DNA from: Pseudomonas sp. WS 5079
Lineage (GTDB): Bacteria; Pseudomonadota; Gammaproteobacteria; Pseudomonadales; Pseudomonadaceae
Assembly: GCF_012985465.1 (NCBI RefSeq)
Contig: NZ_JAAQWN010000002.1
Coordinates: 248,001-312,000, forward strand
DNA: 64,000 nucleotides
Reading direction: 5' to 3'
Below, in pieces: positions 981 through 48,110 of the stretch; the stretch's first letter is position 1, and the number at the start of each line of letters is the position of its first letter. The notes under the pieces are model-generated. The model did not search any database, was not told the origin of the DNA, and saw only the letters and a list, made by a program, of their open reading frames with translations. Both the position numbers and the translations under genes were made by a program.

Positions 981-1487
981 TTACGGCATCAACACCGCAC
1001 GCCGGGCATCGCCGAGGATGTCGACGCCGTTGAGCACAAACTTTTGGGTGCGCACGTCGATGTCGATCACCGGCACGCCGTTGTCCAGGCGATGGTAGGT
1101 GCGGCAGGACAGATCCAGGGTGGTGGTCGCCTTTTCGCCCATCTTCAGCTTGGCTTCCTCCAGGGATTTGAGCTTGCCGCCGACGGTGTGGTAGGTGAAG
1201 TAGGTCTTGCCGTCCTGGTCCTGGCCCGCTTCGCGCACGTTGAGCAGGATGTCTTCGCCCAGGCGCACGCCCAGGGCCAGCATGATTTCGGGACCGGCGC
1301 CTTGCAGCACCAGCTTGGCGTTCAGCACCTTGGCACTCTTGGCCATTTCCTCGGCGATAAAGCGCCCGCCGGACATGGGCTCCATGTCGAACTCGATCTT
1401 CGGCGGGGTGAATTCCTCGACGGTCGCCGACAGCGGCAGGCCCTGGAGGGTGGCCGCAATGGCCTGTCTTACTCGGTTGGTAAACAT
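981..1487 (-). CDS. Contractile tail tube protein (P2 FII type)
   Basis: A 168-residue protein starting MFTNRVRQAI. Length and position directly after the sheath gene match the major tail tube proteins of P2-like contractile tails and R-type pyocins. These stack as hexameric rings to form the rigid inner tube driven through the target membrane. The sequence is rich in beta-type stretches (KTYFTYHTVGGKLKSL) and ends VDILGDARRAVLMP. Its start overlaps the last base of the sheath stop codon, so the two genes are translationally coupled. Confidence 0.85.
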   Translation of the reverse strand: MFTNRVRQAIAATLQGLPLSATVEEFTPPKIEFDMEPMSGGRFIAEEMAKSAKVLNAKLVLQGAGPEIMLALGVRLGEDILLNVREAGQDQDGKTYFTYHTVGGKLKSLEEAKLKMGEKATTTLDLSCRTYHRLDNGVPVIDIDVRTQKFVLNGVDILGDARRAVLMP

Positions 1488-2653
1488 TAGAGAACGTCCT
1501 CCAGGAATTGCTCGATGATTTCATCGCGGGCATTGAGTTGATAAACCATGTGTTCGTTCGGCGCGTAGCGGCCGTAGTCGATCACGATGAACCAGGTGCC
1601 GTTCTTGTACTTCTCGACACTGTTGAGTTCCGGGTGCAGGTACACGCTGCCACCGGGGATGGTTTCGTCGGCCACCAGGGTTTGCAGCCAGTCGTTGATG
1701 CGCTTGACCTCCTGGTCCATGAACGACTTGGTCAGGTTGTGCGCCATGGCTTTCTGCCCGGCCTTGACCAGCTTGCGGCTGATGGCGTCTTCCAGGCCGA
1801 CATAGCTGATGAACTTGCCGGTGACGGAGCGGTTACCCAGCAGCGAGAAGCCACCGAGGACGGTGCGCGCGTAGTAGCTCACGCCGTAGCGGTTGAGCAG
1901 GTCGCCTTCGGTGGAGGTGTCGAGGATGTTGTACTCGACCACGCGGGAAACATCTTCGGCGAAGGTCACCTGATTGCCCGGGCTTTCCCACTGCTTGACC
2001 TTGGCCAATGCGGCGATGGCCAGGGACGACGGCGCGAGGAACACGTTTTTCTTCGCCGCCTTGGAGTACACCGACGGCATGTTGTGCACCAGCAGGCAGC
2101 GGTCGAAACCCAGGCCTTCGCCACCCAGCTCGCCGCTGTAGGTCACTTGGTCGGCGACGCTGGCGTCTTTGCCGTCCAGCACCACACGGGCCTTGATGCG
2201 CTTGCCGAACGCGGCAAATTCACCGGCCACAGCCTTGGTCCCGGTAAAGCCCGGGGCGCCGATGATGGTCAGGTCTTCGGGCACGCTGCCAAGCGCCGCG
2301 AGGCCCAGTTTGCGACCGGTCACCGGCTCATTGCCGCCGATCACGTTGTTGAGGGTATCGGCCGGGGTCGCGCCCTCTTCGACGATCACCACATACACCG
2401 GCACCTTGACCACTTTGAGGATCTGGTACACCGCATGAAACAGCGTGCCCGACTCGGCGCCGGTGGGGTCCAGCAGCGCCTGGGCGGTGAAGCTGTTGAT
2501 ACGGAACGGGGCGTTTTTCGGGATCGACAGGTGCGCATTGGGCGCGGTGCCGACCAGGCCGATCACGTTGTCACCCAGGCCACCCATGGCCTCGGGGGAT
2601 TCGCTGGCATTGACGGTGATGCCGTTATGCTCGAAGTTCAAAACCTCAGCCAT
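1487..2653 (-). CDS. Contractile tail sheath protein (P2 FI type)
   Basis: A 388-residue protein (MAEVLNFEHNGITVNASES...). Features typical of P2 FI and R-pyocin sheaths are the early GDNVIGLVGTAPNA segment, the central NRYGVSYYARTVLGGFSLLGNR stretch (a domain shared by contractile sheaths) and the C-terminal IEQFLEDVL. The protein assembles around the tube and contracts on receptor binding. It starts two bases after the stop of the small upstream gene and touches the tube gene downstream, so sheath and tube form one translation block. Confidence 0.92.
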   Translation of the reverse strand: MAEVLNFEHNGITVNASESPEAMGGLGDNVIGLVGTAPNAHLSIPKNAPFRINSFTAQALLDPTGAESGTLFHAVYQILKVVKVPVYVVIVEEGATPADTLNNVIGGNEPVTGRKLGLAALGSVPEDLTIIGAPGFTGTKAVAGEFAAFGKRIKARVVLDGKDASVADQVTYSGELGGEGLGFDRCLLVHNMPSVYSKAAKKNVFLAPSSLAIAALAKVKQWESPGNQVTFAEDVSRVVEYNILDTSTEGDLLNRYGVSYYARTVLGGFSLLGNRSVTGKFISYVGLEDAISRKLVKAGQKAMAHNLTKSFMDQEVKRINDWLQTLVADETIPGGSVYLHPELNSVEKYKNGTWFIVIDYGRYAPNEHMVYQLNARDEIIEQFLEDVL

Positions 2654-2655
2654 GA

Positions 2656-2859
2656 TTATTCAGCCTTCTTGGTGACGGCCTTCTTGGCCGGTGGGGTGTC
2701 TTGGGCGGCAGCCAGCACGCTGGTCAATTCCAGGCGGCCGGCGGTGCGCAGGGCGGTTGCTTCGACGTCCAGCAGGTCCAATTCCTGGCCGACGGTGGAC
2801 CAGTGGCCACCTCCGGTGGGGAATGGGATGAGGACGGTGTAGGTTTGGCGGTTGGCCAT
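2656..2859 (-). CDS. Small conserved tailocin protein upstream of the sheath gene
   Basis: A 67-residue protein (MANRQTYTVLIPFPTGGGHW...) ending in an Ala/Lys-rich tail (TPPAKKAVTKKAE). A small protein is often encoded just before the sheath in P2-like tailocins, but I recognise no domain. The ATG at 2859 follows GGAGAATTCCCCCC on the minus strand, a usable binding site. It is the first gene after the tandem terminators at 2889-2941, so it may head a separately expressed sheath-tube-tape block. Function unknown. Confidence 0.7.
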   Translation of the reverse strand: MANRQTYTVLIPFPTGGGHWSTVGQELDLLDVEATALRTAGRLELTSVLAAAQDTPPAKKAVTKKAE

Positions 2860-2888
2860 GGGGGGAATTCTCCGGGTGCAAAAAGCGC

Positions 2889-2941
2889 AAAACCCCTGCG
2901 GGAGGGGCTTTGGGCGGGCGAAAAAAAACCGCTGTCGCGGT
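2889..2941 (-). terminator. Tandem intrinsic terminators between fibre and sheath blocks
   Basis: Read on the minus strand, ACCGC-GACA-GCGGT followed by eight T lies at 2941-2921. CCCCT-CCCGC-AGGGG followed by four T lies at 2907-2889. Both come just after the fibre chaperone stop at 2950 and before the next tailocin gene on the same strand. Confidence 0.75.
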
Positions 2942-6144: not shown

Positions 6145-6473
6145 GTCACCACCTCGAAGGATTGCTTGCGGTTTTTCCAGGTCCCGGCAAACCGCAGCAA
6201 CAGGCCAGCGCCCTGGCGATTGGCGACGATGACTTGCGGATCAAAATCGGCGATGCCGTTCTGTGGGTTGTAAAAAGCCTGGGCGGCGTGGCTTTGGGCG
6301 AGGATCAACAGGTCATCGCCCAGGTTCTGCCCCAGAAGTTGCGGGATCAGCGAACCGTACAGCGGGCGTTTCTGCCGTGTGCCCAAAGGTGTGGTCAGGG
6401 CCCGGGTGGCGCGCTGGACAAATTGCGGCCAGTCGTCCACCACGGCCCCGGTGTTTCTCTCTATTCCGATCAT
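6141..6473 (-). CDS. Baseplate protein W (gp25-like)
   Basis: A 110-residue protein, MIGIERNTGAVVDDWPQFV..., with the conserved RPLYGSLIPQLLGQ segment and a C-terminal strand pair typical of GPW/gp25 proteins of contractile injection systems. This component anchors the first sheath ring to the baseplate. The gene lies 9 bases after the spike gene and overlaps J by 4. Confidence 0.9.
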   Translation of the reverse strand: MIGIERNTGAVVDDWPQFVQRATRALTTPLGTRQKRPLYGSLIPQLLGQNLGDDLLILAQSHAAQAFYNPQNGIADFDPQVIVANRQGAGLLLRFAGTWKNRKQSFEVVT

Positions 6474-7631: not shown

Positions 7632-7964
7632 TCACTTTGAGTCCGGGGGCTGGTTGACCCCGATGCGCTTGGCGGCCCAGCGCTCATAAAGGCCGATAGC
7701 GACATCGGCGCCGGCCATGGCGGTCAAGCAACCCAGGGCACCGGCCGTCCAGATCGACATGCCGGCGGCGTACAACAGCATCAACGCCGATACCCCGCAC
7801 ACCATGCACGCCCCGGAACGCAGGGCCAGGCGGCGCACCAGTGACCAACCGCGGGCGCCCTCCTTGTCGGCGCGCCACATCTCCCCGGATACACCGCCAA
7901 TCAGGGCCAGAATAATCACCAGCCAGATAGGCATTTCTGCCAACGCTTGCTGCTCGTTTGTCAT
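7632..7964 (-). CDS. Holin
   Basis: A 110-residue membrane protein. The true start is the ATG at 7964 (MTNEQQALAE), with GGAGGCGTGAC just upstream; the 81-codon extension in the same frame covers two terminators and the leader and is rejected. It has three likely membrane segments: MPIWLVIILALIGGVSG, SGACMVCGVSALMLLYAAGM and TAGALGCLTAMAGADVAIGL. The C-terminus is polar. It is the first structural gene after the regulatory region, as in R-pyocin clusters, and would release the particles with an endolysin encoded outside the window. Confidence 0.85.
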   Translation of the reverse strand: MTNEQQALAEMPIWLVIILALIGGVSGEMWRADKEGARGWSLVRRLALRSGACMVCGVSALMLLYAAGMSIWTAGALGCLTAMAGADVAIGLYERWAAKRIGVNQPPDSK

Positions 7965-7985
7965 GTCACGCCTCCTGGAATGCGT

Positions 7986-8005
7986 AAAACCGGCAGATGG
8001 CCGGT
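7986..8005 (-). terminator. Intrinsic terminator between leader RNA and holin (second of two)
   Basis: On the minus strand, ACCGGC-CATCT-GCCGGT is followed by TTTT. It lies only 22 bases upstream of the holin start, so the T run ends just before the binding site. It follows another terminator 42 bases upstream. Confidence 0.6.
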
Positions 8006-8046
8006 GCTTTGTTAAATAGATGGATGGGGGTGTCGGTAGGCATTCC

Positions 8047-8071
8047 AAAAAGCCCGGTGGCCCGGGCTTTT
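8047..8071 (-). terminator. Intrinsic terminator ending the leader RNA (first of two)
   Basis: The minus strand reads AGCCCGG-GCCA-CCGGGCT followed by a T5 run, with a perfect 7-bp GC-rich stem. The plus strand also gives a T4 run, so it may act both ways. It would end the RNA started at the promoter near 8406-8434. Confidence 0.75.
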
Positions 8072-8270
8072 CAGTAATGCGGTCCTTGGATCTTTCGGCG
8101 CTACTGGCGCGGTACGGATCTTTCCTCGATGTTTTTCCGACCACGATCCCTGTCTGCCGGATAACTGCTTGTGGTGCTTTACGCTGCACACCCGGGTCAG
8201 TTGCCAACCCTCTGAACCGTCAAGGCCGGTTCATCGCTGCCTGTTGTAAAACCGTGAAACTAAAGAGCGT

Positions 8271-8373
8271 CGGCATCCTTGCCGGTGTTGCCTGGCGTCC
8301 TTGCCATCACTCGGTGGCGTCCATGCCAGTGTTGCGTGCCTTCCTTGTCTTCCTTGGCAGCATCCTTGCCGCC
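8271..8373 (-). repeat. Five phased repeats forming ANGGAN hairpins
   Basis: Plus-strand units related to GGC(A/G)TCC(T/A)TGCC start at 8272, 8294, 8316, 8338 (9 of 12 match) and 8359, a 22, 22, 22, 21-bp spacing. Each is GGCA-N4-TGCC-like and so folds. Because 22 is not a multiple of three, the repetition is not a peptide repeat. Confidence 0.8.
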
Positions 8374-8405
8374 TCCACCAGGCCTTGTTGGCTGGCTTGA
8401 GATGG

Positions 8406-8434
8406 AGAATATGCATGTATGCATATACAGTCAA
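8406..8434 (-). promoter_or_regulatory. Minus-strand promoter of the tailocin leader RNA
   Basis: The -35 TTGACT is at 8434-8429 and the -10 TATTCT at 8411-8406, with exactly 17 bp between. The expected start is near 8399-8400. Palindrome A lies in the spacer and touches the -10, and palindrome B touches the -35, so a bound repressor would block polymerase. Confidence 0.7.
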
Positions 8435-8478
8435 TGCATAAATGCATTTATATCGCCACCAAAAATGCGTTAACGCAT
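8411..8478. promoter_or_regulatory. Three ATGC-N6-GCAT operators for the tailocin repressor
   Basis: Site A is ATGCATGTATGCAT (8411-8424), site B is ATGCATAAATGCAT (8434-8447) and site C is the perfect palindrome ATGCGTTAACGCAT (8465-8478). Centre spacings are 23 and 31 bp. A fourth site of the same form stands before the repressor gene. The layout recalls lambdoid triple operators; the identity of the binding protein is inferred from proximity. Confidence 0.65.
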
Positions 8479-8519
8479 AAAACCCTTATATAGCGGACAC
8501 TTGCGGTTTTGCACAGACG

Positions 8520-8545
8520 AAAAAAAGCCCGCTCGTGGGCGGGCT
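8520..8545 (-). terminator. Intrinsic terminator of the repressor gene
   Basis: On the minus strand AGCCCGC-CCACGA-GCGGGCT is followed by a run of T (complement of the A run at 8520-8526). It begins 18 bases after the repressor stop codon and separates it from the leader promoter. Confidence 0.8.
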
Positions 8546-8563
8546 GTTTCTTACGGAGCGAGG

Positions 8564-9292
8564 TTAACGGGCGTACATGCCCCACCAGAAAACGTGACCG
8601 AGGATGCTGATCTGCTCCTCCTGGATATCCTGGAAGCTGTAGTCCTCATCCGGATGCTCGTCACGATTGAAACTGCGCAAGCGAATCCCCGACGGCAGGC
8701 GATAGAGTTGTTTGACCCGCAATTGACCGTTGTGATTGATGGCATACAAGTCACCATCCACGATATCGCCGATCCCGCTCTTGCCGGCATTCACCCCCAC
8801 CGTCGCCCCGTCGCGCAACACCGGCAGCATGCTGTTGCCACGCACCGTCACACACTTGGCCTGGTCGAACTGCACACCGTTATGCCGCAGGCTGCGCTTA
8901 CCAAAACGCAGGCTGGCCTTCTCGCTTTCCTCGATGACGAATCTTCCTGATCCAGCAGCCAATTCAACCTCGCGCAAAAAGGGGATCGACACCTCGTCAT
9001 CATTAACGGGCGTGTCGTCGTCCCACAGGCTTATATCCTTGAGCTCCGAATGCATCGGATCGCGTTCATCCTGCCACGCCGGCCCCGCGCGCCCGCGCAA
9101 CTGGTCGGTGCTCACCCGGAAGTAATCGGCAATACGCGAGATGTGCTTGTCCGACGGATCAACGATCTTGCCGCTGAGAATCCGGGACAGAGTGGATTGA
9201 GGCACGCCGGTACGCCGGTGAAGCTCCGTGGGGGAGATCCCGTCGCGAGCGAGCAGCTCTCTTAAGACGATAGAAACGTTGCGTTTTTGCAT
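8564..9292 (-). CDS. Tailocin repressor, HTH plus S24 peptidase (PrtR/CI-like)
   Basis: A 242-residue protein counted from MQKRNVSIVL. Residues about 8-65 form a Cro/CI helix-turn-helix (ISPTELHRRTGVPQSTLSRILSG). The C-terminal half is an S24 peptidase with Ser154 (RGNSMLPVLRDG) and Lys194 (LRVKQL). A likely self-cleavage bond is Ala113-Gly114 in ELAAGSG. In this family RecA filament triggers autocleavage, so the tailocin would be induced by DNA damage. No Shine-Dalgarno is visible at 9292; the predicted -10 leaves almost no leader. A TTG 36 bases upstream is the alternative start. No separate PrtN-type activator is seen in the window. The gene is divergent from mutS, the usual tailocin site in fluorescent pseudomonads. 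Confidence 0.9.
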   Translation of the reverse strand: MQKRNVSIVLRELLARDGISPTELHRRTGVPQSTLSRILSGKIVDPSDKHISRIADYFRVSTDQLRGRAGPAWQDERDPMHSELKDISLWDDDTPVNDDEVSIPFLREVELAAGSGRFVIEESEKASLRFGKRSLRHNGVQFDQAKCVTVRGNSMLPVLRDGATVGVNAGKSGIGDIVDGDLYAINHNGQLRVKQLYRLPSGIRLRSFNRDEHPDEDYSFQDIQEEQISILGHVFWWGMYAR

Positions 9293-9299
9293 AAATGGG

Positions 9300-9342
9300 A
9301 TAGTGACGGGAGTTTTTGGGGTTGGCAAATGCTAATTTGCAT
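9300..9342 (-). promoter_or_regulatory. Repressor promoter with adjacent operator
   Basis: The operator ATGCTAATTTGCAT lies at 9342-9329, directly before a -35-like TTGCCA (9328-9323). After 17 bp comes a weak -10-like CACTAT (9305-9300), 7 bases before the ATG at 9292. This would give a nearly leaderless mRNA, as for lambda cI from pRM. A further GCATG-GTG-CATGC palindrome is at 9350-9362. Confidence 0.45.
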
Positions 9343-9490: not shown

Positions 9491-12082
9491 ATGAGTAAAA
9501 ATACGTCCGATCTGTCCTCCCACACCCCAATGATGCAGCAGTACTGGCGCCTGAAAAACCAGCACCCTGATCAGTTGATGTTTTATCGCATGGGCGACTT
9601 CTACGAGATCTTCTATGAAGATGCGAAGAAGGCCGCCAAGTTGCTGGATATCACCCTGACCGCGCGCGGGCAGTCGGCTGGGCAGGCGATTCCGATGTGT
9701 GGGATTCCCTATCATTCGTTGGAAGGTTACCTGGCCAAGCTGGTCAAGCTGGGTGAGTCGGTGGTGATCTGTGAGCAGATCGGCGACCCGGCGACCAGCA
9801 AGGGGCCGGTGGAGCGTCAGGTGGTGCGGATCATTACGCCGGGGACGGTGAGTGATGAGGCGCTGCTGGATGAGCGGCGCGACAATCTGATCGCTGCGGT
9901 GCTGGGGGATGAGCGGCTGTTCGGCCTGGCGGTGCTGGATATCACCAGTGGCAATTTCACCGTCCTGGAGATCAAGGGCTGGGAGAACCTGCTGGCGGAG
10001 CTGGAGCGTATCAATCCGGTGGAGTTGATGATCCCGGATGATTGGCCCAAGGATCTGCCGGCGGAAAAACGCCGTGGGGCCAAGCGTCGCGCGCCGTGGG
10101 ATTTTGAGCGCGATTCGGCGCTGAAAAGCCTGTGCCAGCAATTCTCCGTACAGGATCTGAAAGGTTTTGGTTGCGAGACCCTGACCCTGGCCATCGGCGC
10201 TGCCGGTTGCCTGCTCAATTATGCGAAGGAAACCCAGCGCACCGCCCTGCCGCATTTACGCAGCCTGCGCCATGAGCGCCTGGACGACACGGTAGTGCTC
10301 GATGGTGCCAGCCGGCGCAACCTGGAACTGGACACCAACCTGGCCGGTGGGCGCGACAATACCCTGCAGTCGGTCGTCGACCGTTGCCAGACCGCCATGG
10401 GCAGCCGTTTGCTGACCCGTTGGCTGAACCGCCCGCTGCGCGATTTGACCGTGCTGCAGGCGCGCCAGTCTTCTATTACCTGCCTGCTGGACGGCTACCG
10501 CTTTGAAAAGCTGCAACCGCAGCTCAAGGAAATTGGCGATATCGAGCGGATTCTTGCGCGGATCGGCCTGCGTAATGCCCGCCCGCGTGACCTGGCGCGC
10601 CTGCGTGACGCGCTGGGTGTGCTGCCCGAGCTGCAACAGGCGATGACCGAGCTGGAAGCGCCGCACCTGCAACAACTTGCTGTCACGGCCGGCACTTACC
10701 CGGAACTGGCTGCGCTGCTGGAAAAAGCCATTATCGACAACCCGCCCGCGATCATCCGCGACGGCGGCGTGCTGAAGACCGGTTACGACAGTGAGCTGGA
10801 TGAGCTGCAGGCCTTGAGCGAAAACGCCGGGCAGTTCCTGATCGACCTGGAAGCCCGCGAAAAAGCCCGCACCGGCCTGGCCAACCTGAAGGTCGGCTAC
10901 AACCGCGTGCACGGCTACTTTATTGAGTTGCCGAGCAAGCAGGCCGAGCAGGCCCCGATTGATTACCAACGTCGCCAAACCCTTAAAGGTGCCGAGCGCT
11001 TTATCACCCCTGAGCTCAAAGAGTTCGAAGACAAGGCGCTGTCGGCCAAGAGCCGCGCCCTGGCCCGGGAAAAAATGCTCTATGAGGCCTTGCTCGAAGA
11101 CCTGATCGGCCAGCTCGCGCCGTTGCAGGACACCGCTGCGGCCCTGGCCGAGCTGGATGTATTGAGCAACCTTGCCGAGCGCGCGCTGAACCTTGACCTG
11201 AACTGCCCGCGTTTTGTCAGCGAGCCGTGCATGCGCATTGTCCAGGGCCGCCATCCGGTGGTGGAGCAAGTGCTGACCACCCCGTTCGTGGCCAACGACC
11301 TGTCGCTGGACGACGATACGCGCATGCTGGTGATCACCGGTCCGAACATGGGCGGTAAATCCACCTACATGCGCCAGACCGCATTGATCGTGCTGCTGGC
11401 GCATATCGGCAGCTTCGTGCCGGCGGCCAGTTGCGAGTTGTCTCTGGTGGACCGCATCTTCACCCGTATCGGTTCCAGTGATGACCTGGCCGGTGGCCGT
11501 TCGACCTTTATGGTGGAAATGAGCGAAACCGCCAATATCCTGCACAACGCCAGCGACCGCAGCCTGGTGCTGATGGATGAAGTGGGGCGCGGCACCAGCA
11601 CTTTCGACGGCCTGTCGCTGGCCTGGGCGGCCGCCGAGCGCCTGGCACACTTGCGGGCCTATACGCTGTTCGCCACCCACTACTTCGAATTGACCGTGCT
11701 GCCGGAAAGCGAGCCATTGGTGGCCAACGTGCATCTCAATGCCACCGAGCACAACGAACGCATCGTGTTCCTGCACCACGTGCTGCCAGGGCCGGCCAGC
11801 CAGAGTTACGGCCTGGCCGTGGCCCAGTTGGCCGGTGTGCCGAACGATGTGATCCTGCGCGCCCGCGAGCACCTCAGCCGCCTGGAAACCACCGCCCTGC
11901 CCCACGAAACCGTGGTGGCCAGCCCAGCCAAGGCCGCCAGTAAACCGGGTGTGCCGATGCAGAGTGATATGTTCGCCAGCCTGCCTCACCCCGTGCTGGA
12001 TGAGTTGGCAAAGCTTGACCTGGACGACTTGACTCCACGAAAAGCGTTGGAATTGCTCTATGCACTGAAGACACGGGTCTAA
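9491..12082 (+). CDS. mutS: DNA mismatch repair protein MutS
   Basis: An 863-residue protein of normal MutS length. The mismatch-binding Phe37-x-Glu39 motif is in GDFYEIF. The ATPase has Walker [10 protein letters not shown] near residue 617, Walker [10 protein letters not shown] near 697 and the THYFEL signature. The extreme C-terminus ([18 protein letters not shown]) is the conserved dimer/tetramer tail. The protein recognises base mismatches and recruits MutL. The ATG at 9491 has only a weak binding site, but the [19 protein letters not shown] start matches the family. It is divergent from the tailocin repressor and followed by fdxA. Confidence 0.98.
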
Positions 12083-12625: not shown

Positions 12626-12760
12626 AAAAAAAAGGGGCGGTTTGACCCGCCCACATTTTTTCCCTAGTCCCTGTGTTCCTTTTCATCGTCCTGATGAATC
12701 GCATCCTGCGAACTTCCCTGAGTCATCGTTCCTTGATGACTGTGTCAATCCGTGGACACA
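12626..12760 (-). ncRNA. rsmZ: Regulatory RNA RsmZ
   Basis: It sits between fdxA and the next gene, its known place in Pseudomonas, and is read on the minus strand. The RNA opens UGUGUCCACGGAUUGACACA (a 5' hairpin) and then has several GGA loops: UCAUC-AAGGAAC-GAUGA, UCGC-AGGAU-GCGA and UUCAUC-AGGAC-GAUGAA, plus AAGGAA and AGGGA in linkers. It ends in a GGGCGG/CCGCCC hairpin with eight T (12652-12626). RsmZ titrates RsmA/RsmE and relieves translational repression. A -10 TAATAT lies at 12772-12767, giving a start near 12760. The exact 5' end is estimated. Confidence 0.93.
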
Positions 12761-12930: not shown

Positions 12931-12948
12931 AGTAAGCGAATGCTTACA
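12931..12948 (-). promoter_or_regulatory. GacA upstream activating site of rsmZ
   Basis: The minus strand reads TGTAAGCATTCGCTTACT, one mismatch from TGTAAG-N6-CTTACA, the known GacA box of rsm RNA genes. It lies about 180 bp upstream of the rsmZ start, the usual distance. The stretch from 12773 to 12930 between box and promoter is A+T-rich. Confidence 0.85.
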
Positions 12949-39723: not shown

Positions 39724-39752
39724 GCTCGCACATCGTAAGCAGACTCCTACAA

Positions 39753-47071: not shown

Positions 47072-48110
47072 TAAAACCGAGCTGCCTACATCGCAGCCTC
47101 GCTAAAGCTCGACAGCTCCCACATTTGCTCCGTGTGCCTCCCCAATCCCTTGTAGGAGCTGTCGAGCCCCGGCGAGGCTGCGATAGGATCAACTCGGTAC
47201 ACCTGCAAAACCGAGCTGCCTGCATCGCAGCCTCGCTAAAGCTCGACAGCTCCCACATTTGCTCCGTGTGCCTCCCCAATCCCTTGTAGGAGCTGTCGAG
47301 CCCCGGCGAGGCTGCGATGGGATCGACTCGGTACACCTGCAAAACCCAGTCGCCTGCATCGCAGCCTCGCTAAAGCTCGACAGCTCCCACATTTGCTCCG
47401 TGTGCCTCCCCAATCCCTTGTAGGAGCTGTCGAGCCCCGGCGAAGCGGCGATAGGATCAACTCGGTACACCCATAAAACCCAGTCGCCTGCATCGCAGCC
47501 TCGCTAAAGCTCGACAGCTCCCACATTTGCTCAGTGTGTATCCCCAATCCCTTGTAGGAGCTGTCGAGCCCCGGCGAGGCTGCGATGGGATCGACTCGGT
47601 ACACCCATAAAACCCAGTTGCCTGCATCGCCGCCTCGCTAAAGCTCGACAGCTCCCACACTTGCTCCGTGTGCCTCCCCAATCCCTTGTAGGAGCTGTCG
47701 AGCCCCGGCGAGGCGGCGATGGGATCAACTCGGTATACCTACAAAACCGAGCTGCCCGCATCGCCGCCTCGCTAAAGCTCGACAGCTCCCACACTTGCTC
47801 CGTGTGCCTCCCCAATCCCTTGTAGGAGCTGTCGAGCCCCGGCGAGGCGGCGATGGGATCGACTCGGTACACCTGCAAAACCCAGTTGCCCGCATCGCAG
47901 CCTCGCTAAAGCTCGACAGCTCCCACACTTGCTCCGTGTCCTTCCCCGATCCCTTGTAGGAGCTGTCGAGCCCCGGCGAGGCTGCGATAGGATCAACTCG
48001 GTACACCCATAAAACCGAATTGCCCGCATCGCAGCCTCGCTAAAGCTCGACCGCTCCCACATTTGCTCAGTGTGCTTCCCCGAACCCTCATGGGAGCTGT
48101 GTGACTCCCA
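47072..48110. repeat. Tandem array of eight 134-bp REP-related inverted repeats
   Basis: Unit markers (AAAACC(G/C)A then TGCC) recur at 47077, 47211, 47345, 47479, 47613, 47747, 47881 and 48015, exactly 134 bp apart. Each unit has a left arm (ATCGCAGCCTCGC...GCTCGACAGCTCC) and a matching right arm (GGAGCTGTCGAGC...GGCGAGGCTGCGAT), so it can form a long hairpin over about 30 bp. Units 5 and 6 change both arms together (CGCCGCC with GGCGGCG). Unit 3 has a right-arm change only. Unit 8 has a decayed right arm. Confidence 0.93.

Follow-up and report, generated by a model that had tools for sequence, protein, structure and literature searches.

To our knowledge, only a few cases are known in which an RNA element reprograms RNA polymerase by itself. 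In the nut sites of phage lambda, boxA is located next to a hairpin site. The put RNAs of phage HK022 (putL and putR) are transcribed from early promoters, need no dedicated protein for their action and comprise about 70 nt with two stem-loops (PMC9378689). The leader RNA described here shares this location 3′ of early promoters; passage of terminators has been shown for put and is proposed here. In HK022, put lies in phage early operons next to cI, as the present RNA does in its phage copies, and in the loci inspected the RNA was found 3′ of the regulated promoter of a long operon (promoters judged by eye). It differs from put in a core of about 107 nt with four hairpin stems and a pseudoknot, an often present boxA-like motif and an extra 3′ hairpin, and in its additional occurrence in tailocins and plasmids. 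With the boxA of rrn operons and lambda nut it shares the motif GCTCTTTA in the leader, which here continues with G instead of A, precedes a conserved pseudoknot and is absent in part of the family.

At the locus studied here, the leader also resembles RsmX, RsmY and RsmZ in its several ANGGAN hairpins and extra GGA sites, but these lie inside an operon leader, lack a GacA box, give an Rfam match below threshold and are lineage-specific. Leaders controlled by CsrA or RsmA likewise contain several sites, for example pgaA, where CsrA acts on Rho-dependent termination (PMC7652899); here, in contrast, regular hairpins stand beside a boxA-like motif, and at least 307 nt separate them from the first ribosome-binding site. 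AlpA of P. aeruginosa, an antiterminator of a DNA-damage-induced death pathway that switches on prophage-like lysis genes (PMC7969949), is a protein, whereas the conserved element here is an RNA. The prtR-hol segment of tailocin loci has been described as highly conserved and as a possible recombination hotspot (Mavrodi 2009, PMC2647930), in a paper whose main text does not contain the word RNA. Among the open-access papers listed in literature searches, none was seen to describe this RNA or Rsm hairpins in a tailocin leader.

Results

Architecture of the tailocin leader

We analysed a window of 64,000 nt, meaning the whole stretch of DNA, to which all positions refer. Pfam and PHROG searches place a tailocin cluster with repressor, holin, baseplate, fibre and sheath genes on its minus strand. 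Between repressor and holin follow, in this order, the repressor terminator, three palindromes, a promoter, the Rsm array, a boxA-like motif, the RNA core and hairpins (Table 1). The large ORF at 9491-12082 is presumably mutS, judging from its position. Beyond it, 4 kb from the array, lies a canonical rsmZ (12627-12760, minus strand), the sole Rfam match in the window at gathering score, with a GacA-box match (one mismatch) in front of it at 12931-12948.

A sequence-only reading of this DNA had described a promoter overlapped by two palindromes, four ANGGAN stem-loops and two AAGGAA motifs, all inside a tailocin cluster, presumed to be under repressor control and without a GacA box. These observations hold: holin, baseplate and sheath genes are identified, a CI-like S24 repressor adjoins the leader, the promoter is present with three palindromes instead of two, and every one of the stem-loops and motifs could be located. 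Allowing up to two mismatches, no GacA box occurs near 8400; the two matches in the window lie in front of rsmZ and at 39734. The palindromes are probable operators. Promoter and terminator calls are consensus matches, and promoter-type sites arise by chance at a mean of 0.8 in shuffles of the 1.8 kb scanned. In the subset of printed loci that we looked at closely, a promoter-like stretch was seen by eye 5′ of the RNA.

We considered and rejected a coding origin of the region. ORFs cross it on both strands, for example one of 54 aa at 8260-8424 that starts inside the promoter, and an open frame lies upstream of holin; the compensatory changes in the pseudoknot described below and the indels between relatives disfavour a coding explanation.

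Table 1 Features of the leader and the tailocin operon (window positions)
Feature	Position	Strand	Basis
CI-like repressor with S24 autopeptidase domain, PrtR-type	8564..9328	-	Pfam PF00717 and HTH_3; PHROG 4 'transcriptional repressor'
Intrinsic terminator 3′ of repressor gene	8520..8545	-	Terminator scan
Three palindromes (probable operators)	8465-8478, 8438-8451, 8410-8425 (span 8410..8478)		Sequence; overlap promoter
Sigma-70-type promoter TTGACT-N17-TATTCT	8434-8406	-	Promoter scan; similar promoter in tailocin relatives, e.g. L032
P0, possible short hairpin at leader start	8378..8395	-	Inspection; short hairpins similarly placed in relatives
Rsm array: four ANGGAN hairpins and two AAGGAA sites	8271..8373	-	Scan and comparison
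Hairpin 1, loop AAGGAU	8356-8373	-	Potential stem-loop
Hairpin 2, loop AUGGAC	8315-8328	-	Potential stem-loop
Hairpin 3, loop AAGGAC	8293-8306	-	Potential stem-loop
Hairpin 4, loop AAGGAU	8271-8284	-	Potential stem-loop
Linear AAGGAA sites	within 8347-8357 and 8339-8348	-	
boxA-like motif GCTCTTTAGTTTCAC	8254..8268	-	CTCTTTA enrichment and motif table
Pseudoknotted RNA core, about 107 nt	8136..8242	-	Covariation and distribution
Core helices; pseudoknot AACTG/CAGTT	P1 8213-8233, P2 8194-8210, P3 8173-8192, P4 8136-8161		
Middle hairpin GATC...GCCAGTAGC...GATC	8089..8120	-	Alignment A3, inspection; less conserved
Conserved 3′ hairpin GCATTACTG-AAAAGCCCGG..CCGGGCTTTTT-GG-AATGC	8040..8080	-	Alignments; terminator of the sequence-only reading
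Holin, first gene of the operon at this locus	7632..7964	-	PF16085, 180 bits
Two terminator-like hairpins inside operon	2880..2941	-	Terminator scan; same place in 9/9 operons
g8, small gene immediately 5′ of sheath gene	2656..2859	-	PHROG 6423
Sheath gene	1487-2653	-	PHROG 23
ORF	981-1487		PHROG 55

A structured RNA core with a pseudoknot

The Rsm array is only the first third of a larger leader element. Between the array and the 3′ hairpin lie about 150 nt of conserved structured RNA, which had been overlooked. We aligned its core, initially from 22 diverse copies and then from 100. In the 100-copy alignment 98.9% of 2987 cells are paired, and compensatory change is found in 23 of 30 pairs, distributed over all five helices, compared with a shuffled mean of 11.4; none of 500 shuffles reached 23. 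Compensatory cells number 246 compared with 44, and structures slid along the alignment yield 4–10 pairs with at most about 50% of cells paired. Covariation was also seen in a smaller core alignment (A2). The pseudoknot AACTG:CAGTT is recoded to CACTA:TAGTG, CTCCA:TGGAG and AACGG:CCGTT, and these recodings are the cleanest evidence, since the 100-copy alignment was fitted to the hairpin stems and not to the pseudoknot; there are 13 non-standard pairs in 500 pseudoknot cells, 6 gapped. Comparison among relatives thus shows a structured RNA that includes a pseudoknot. Its unpaired positions are highly conserved, and the part of the leader that follows the array folds better than shuffles (z −2.57). 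Rfam contains no match for the core in the window at gathering score, and, apart from a weak RsmZ match on the array side, none overlapping it at E values up to 5 (7950-8560).

The 3′ hairpin consists of an outer stem and an internal loop. Its U-run belongs to the stem; the terminator scan omits the hairpin and a looser scan lists it. A short U-run is present in tailocins, and the inspected copies from phages and plasmids lack a U-tract. The form TTACTG..TTTGGAATG occurs in 201 of 215 holin contexts; of the 101 other contexts, TTTCAC..GGGAAA is found in 27 and the tailocin form in 15, and 59 fit neither pattern. The alignments identify the element at 8040-8080, previously read as an intrinsic terminator, as a real hairpin and a conserved part of the leader RNA, one that may terminate in tailocins. 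At three loci (L463 1374-1397, L464 869-889, and L466 775-795 on the other strand) a similar hairpin is repeated before the holin, as if gene cassettes had been inserted between RNA and holin.

Distribution and genomic contexts

By blastn, the leader matches 121 of 199 genomes of the genus, most of them only from just past the hairpins onward. A covariance model finds the core in 119/199 genus genomes, mostly without the Rsm array and in many as a single copy, in 23/198 family genomes with an E value of at most 0.1 (15 of the same genus, 4 of other genera at E<1e-6, 4 marginal) and in 2/194 order genomes, both of the same genus. A 16-mer pattern scan of genome contigs is noisy: 67 core loci were recovered by profile search among the 120 matches listed, and the rest come mostly from unrelated taxa. 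The compared sequences are related, and none of these counts represent independent events.

Contexts of the RNA are diverse. The second core copy in the genome to which the window belongs (L091) lies 5′ of exonuclease VIII-, RecT- and DNA methyltransferase-like genes, a context that we read as a prophage early operon. In a P. fluorescens tailocin record the RNA follows prtR, overlaps the start of a Com-like gene and precedes the holin. The phages PseuP_224, Orimi01 and Medea1 carry it beside a cI or repressor-like gene and before early genes, and on plasmids of the P. syringae group it adjoins regulator genes and is followed by lytic transglycosylase and VirB-type genes; in one plasmid record an insertion element comes after the RNA. 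A divergent member (L092) is located between an S24 repressor and RecT, HNH and RecE-like genes. In phage Orimi01 (L074, about 6230-6330), the stretch 3′ of the core looks by eye like a tRNA T-arm and 3′ end.

Alleles without the core exist. The tailocin leader of G171 (L043 / L102) keeps array, boxA and 3′ hairpin and is devoid of the pseudoknotted core. G137 (L094) and G045 (L100) have lost most of the RNA, so that the leader runs straight into the holin. These two alleles prove little, because few of the window's proteins match there (PrtR and holin in G137, only the holin in G045) and G137 has a strong terminator 2.6 kb after the holin start.

Comparative evidence for the boxA-like motif

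We determined the position of CTCTTTA relative to the core in 316 unique contexts, a sample biased by loci that were fetched with the array pattern. The heptamer lies within 100 nt upstream of the core in 219/316 and in 0/316 in each of four other 100-nt bins, so that the motif is placed by comparison. Its form is GCTCTTTAG, with a conserved A further on; among 65 distinct 18-mers with CTCTTTA, the preceding base is G in all 65 and the next base is G in 64 and A in 1. It matches the first 8 of 11 positions of the gamma-proteobacterial boxA consensus GYTCTTTAANA (PMC5725501). Of the 215 contexts that have a holin match within 2.5 kb, 176 contain the motif, compared with 43 of the 101 that have no such match; the 97 contexts from which it is missing include P. 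putida, P. mosselii and P. entomophila loci. Exact GYTCTTTAANA matches in the genome studied are not commoner than matches to the reversed consensus (13 vs 12).

Comparative evidence for selection on the Rsm array

Across both strands of the 64-kb window, three ANGGAN hairpins (stem of at least 3) within 250 nt occur only at the array locus. The number of ANGGA motifs in 330 nt is also highest there (8), followed by 7 at 47954 and at rsmZ. The former is another dense cluster, at about 47954-47400 on the minus strand. Comparison of 103 distinct arrays shows a single deviation among 1648 cells at the fixed loop letters (A and GGA) of the hairpins, and 98 deviations among 824 cells at the N letters; because the array sequences are related, the p-value of 2e-47 for this constancy should not be taken at face value. 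The contacts in the RsmE structure are to the A and GGA of the ANGGAN hexaloop (PMC7652899), and the constancy pattern is that expected of RsmE sites, from which we infer Rsm binding. The first linear AAGGAA site is poorly conserved (one G deviates in 17/103 arrays) and the second is nearly as constant as the loops. In 102 of 103 arrays, GAC leads from the last hairpin to boxA, which lies 2 nt after the closing pair.

The evidence for the hairpins is mainly comparative, and free energy does not favour them: folded by itself, the array reaches a minimum energy like that of shuffles (z −0.03), in a structure that displays the first two hairpins with the last two paired with each other. The fold of the whole leader (z −1.87) is of little use for the array. 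From the loops we conclude that the array hairpins are under purifying selection, as judged across related sequences.

The array lies within the blastn match in at least 32 of 199 genus genomes, and all 32 loci have four ANGGAN hairpins. Among the matches listed, it occurs in 17 of the 67 core-bearing loci of named genomes, all 17 with boxA. Names are listed for 13 of these 17: P. libanensis, veronii, haemolytica, rhodesiae, marginalis, lactis, cedrina, grimontii, trivialis, salomonii, two further Pseudomonas and one contig labelled P. viridiflava. Most of them belong to the P. fluorescens subgroup. Loci of P. chlororaphis, protegens, mandelii, putida and mosselii have the core without the array. 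The P. viridiflava contig (L188), with an array otherwise confined to P. fluorescens-type species among the loci listed, is mislabelled or reflects transfer, and a second copy in one genome (L069 in G099) has core, boxA and a shortened array with one good hairpin. A derivation of the array from the neighbouring rsmZ was considered and rejected, as by eye no resemblance extends beyond GGA motifs.

Terminator-like hairpins inside the operon

The second internal hairpin ends about 20 nt before the start codon at 2859, a gap that leaves no room for a promoter there. At 20 loci examined, g8 was found in nine operons, and comparison of these places a terminator-like hairpin at most 115 nt before g8 in 9/9; the distance is 22–31 nt in six operons and 55–73 nt in three, where a tight promoter between hairpin and g8 is possible. 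As a control, such hairpins precede 0/41 starts of g2, baseplate V, baseplate J and sheath genes, a count that leaves out the row for an ORF at 958-1467 because of its wrong frame (0/9 there). The same test gave 2/12 for g4, 0/8 for fibre and chaperone and 12/20 for holin; judged by coordinates, the holin cases are mostly the RNA's own 3′ hairpin or its second copy. Since the hairpins precede g8 in 9/9 operons, read-through is probably needed to reach the sheath gene.

Discussion

We propose that the leader is a cis-acting processive-antitermination RNA to which, in the P. fluorescens-type clade, an Rsm docking array has been added; on the comparative evidence we assign this reading a probability of about 0.6. 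Antitermination fits because the RNA follows a repressed promoter, carries a boxA and a conserved fold, and has terminators to pass. Against it stand a core unlike put in size or fold, the 97 of 316 contexts that lack boxA, and the existence of core-less alleles.

In the mechanism that we infer, the repressor-controlled promoter at 8434-8406 would become active once the SOS response cleaves the repressor, and transcription of the tailocin operon would begin with a leader that measures about 435 nt from the predicted start site. The leader would then present (i) perhaps a short hairpin at its start, (ii) in this clade, four ANGGAN hairpins and two ANGGA sites for RsmA/RsmE dimers, (iii) the boxA-like motif as a site for NusB/S10, (iv) the pseudoknotted RNA, which, with or without Nus factors, would attach to the elongating polymerase and confer terminator resistance, and (v) the conserved 3′ hairpin. 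The modified polymerase would pass the hairpins at 8040-8080 and 2941-2880 and transcribe the sheath gene and later genes. Once bound to the array, Rsm proteins would probably influence the leader in cis, through Nus loading, Rho access or RNA stability, as the fixed place of the array beside boxA suggests. Such an action would couple the tailocin to the Gac/Rsm state, with titration of Rsm in trans as a possible side effect.

The stand-alone decoy favoured by the sequence-only reading, a terminated sRNA of about 350 nt that would titrate RsmA/RsmE after DNA damage and link tailocin release to secondary metabolism, now appears unlikely. The succession of four hairpins and two linear ANGGA sites and the strong selection on the loops speak for it, as do the short U-run of the 3′ hairpin in tailocins and the listing of this hairpin by the looser terminator scan. 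Yet among the matches listed the array is confined to leaders: 116 of 120 double-hairpin matches listed in viral contigs have the RNA core at most 250 nt downstream (of the other four, one is cut by the contig end and three look like chance), and even in G171 the array remains in a leader that has no core. In these matches the array is an add-on in an operon leader, and the supposed terminator, which has no U-tract in the inspected phage and plasmid copies, belongs to the leader RNA. A GacA box is absent, the RsmZ covariance model scores 13.2 bits on the array side compared with a cut-off of 44, and a global switch would presumably gain little because an induced cell is expected to lyse. The hairpins are conserved where an array exists, but most genus genomes with the leader RNA are without them, which weakens a general role by the measure that the sequence-only reading had itself set, their presence in related tailocin loci. 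A free decoy sRNA for Rsm may arise as a by-product. The alternative in the same reading, an mRNA leader on which Rsm controls holin expression, is correct in that the region is a leader; the hairpins, however, stop 307 nt short of the holin start and leave its ribosome-binding site uncovered. Occlusion of that site by the array was rejected on this distance and on the Shine-Dalgarno stretch (7962-7977), which has no ANGGA.

Two further explanations concern the core. The resemblance of a boxA-like motif beside a hairpin-rich site to lambda nut, together with first downstream genes that differ, would suit an N-like antitermination protein made elsewhere that binds the RNA, but across the examined tailocin, phage and plasmid loci no common neighbour gene is evident, and many genomes hold a single copy of the RNA; we regard such a protein as rather improbable. 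Similarly improbable is a ligand-sensing riboswitch or attenuator that would decide on transcription of the operon at the 3′ hairpin. The pseudoknot, the strong conservation of unpaired positions and a 3′ hairpin with possible terminator activity in tailocins would suit one, but the operons behind the RNA are functionally unrelated (lysis, recombination, conjugation), the inspected phage and plasmid copies of the hairpin are no terminators, and neither the boxA-like motif nor the distal terminators would be needed.

Returning to antitermination by the leader, a more far-reaching version would make it a new cis-acting antiterminator RNA family of Pseudomonas tailocins, temperate phages and conjugative plasmids. 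In the P. fluorescens-type clade, Rsm dimers on the four hairpins would oppose NusB/S10 at boxA, so that the leader would sense the Gac/Rsm state and a DNA-damaged cell would complete the sheath genes only when the Gac pathway titrates Rsm; we consider this version doubtful. In P. fluorescens SBW25, the tailocin (prophage 1) has a LexA site upstream and is plasmid-induced, over-expression of its holin is harmful, and a gacS mutation relieves the cost of a plasmid (PMC8544851). The content covered of that report does not show an action of Rsm on the SBW25 tailocin; that Gac/Rsm and tailocin genes are linked is conceivable.

If the proposed reading is true, this covariation-supported RNA, which 119 of the 199 genomes sampled from a well-studied genus contain, would add a family to the RNA elements that act on RNA polymerase. 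It could explain how tailocin sheath genes are expressed behind terminator-like hairpins without an evident N-, Q- or AlpA-like protein. Through the Rsm array, the SOS and Gac/Rsm pathways would meet on a single transcript, and the decision to lyse and release tailocins could be tied to the state of the population.
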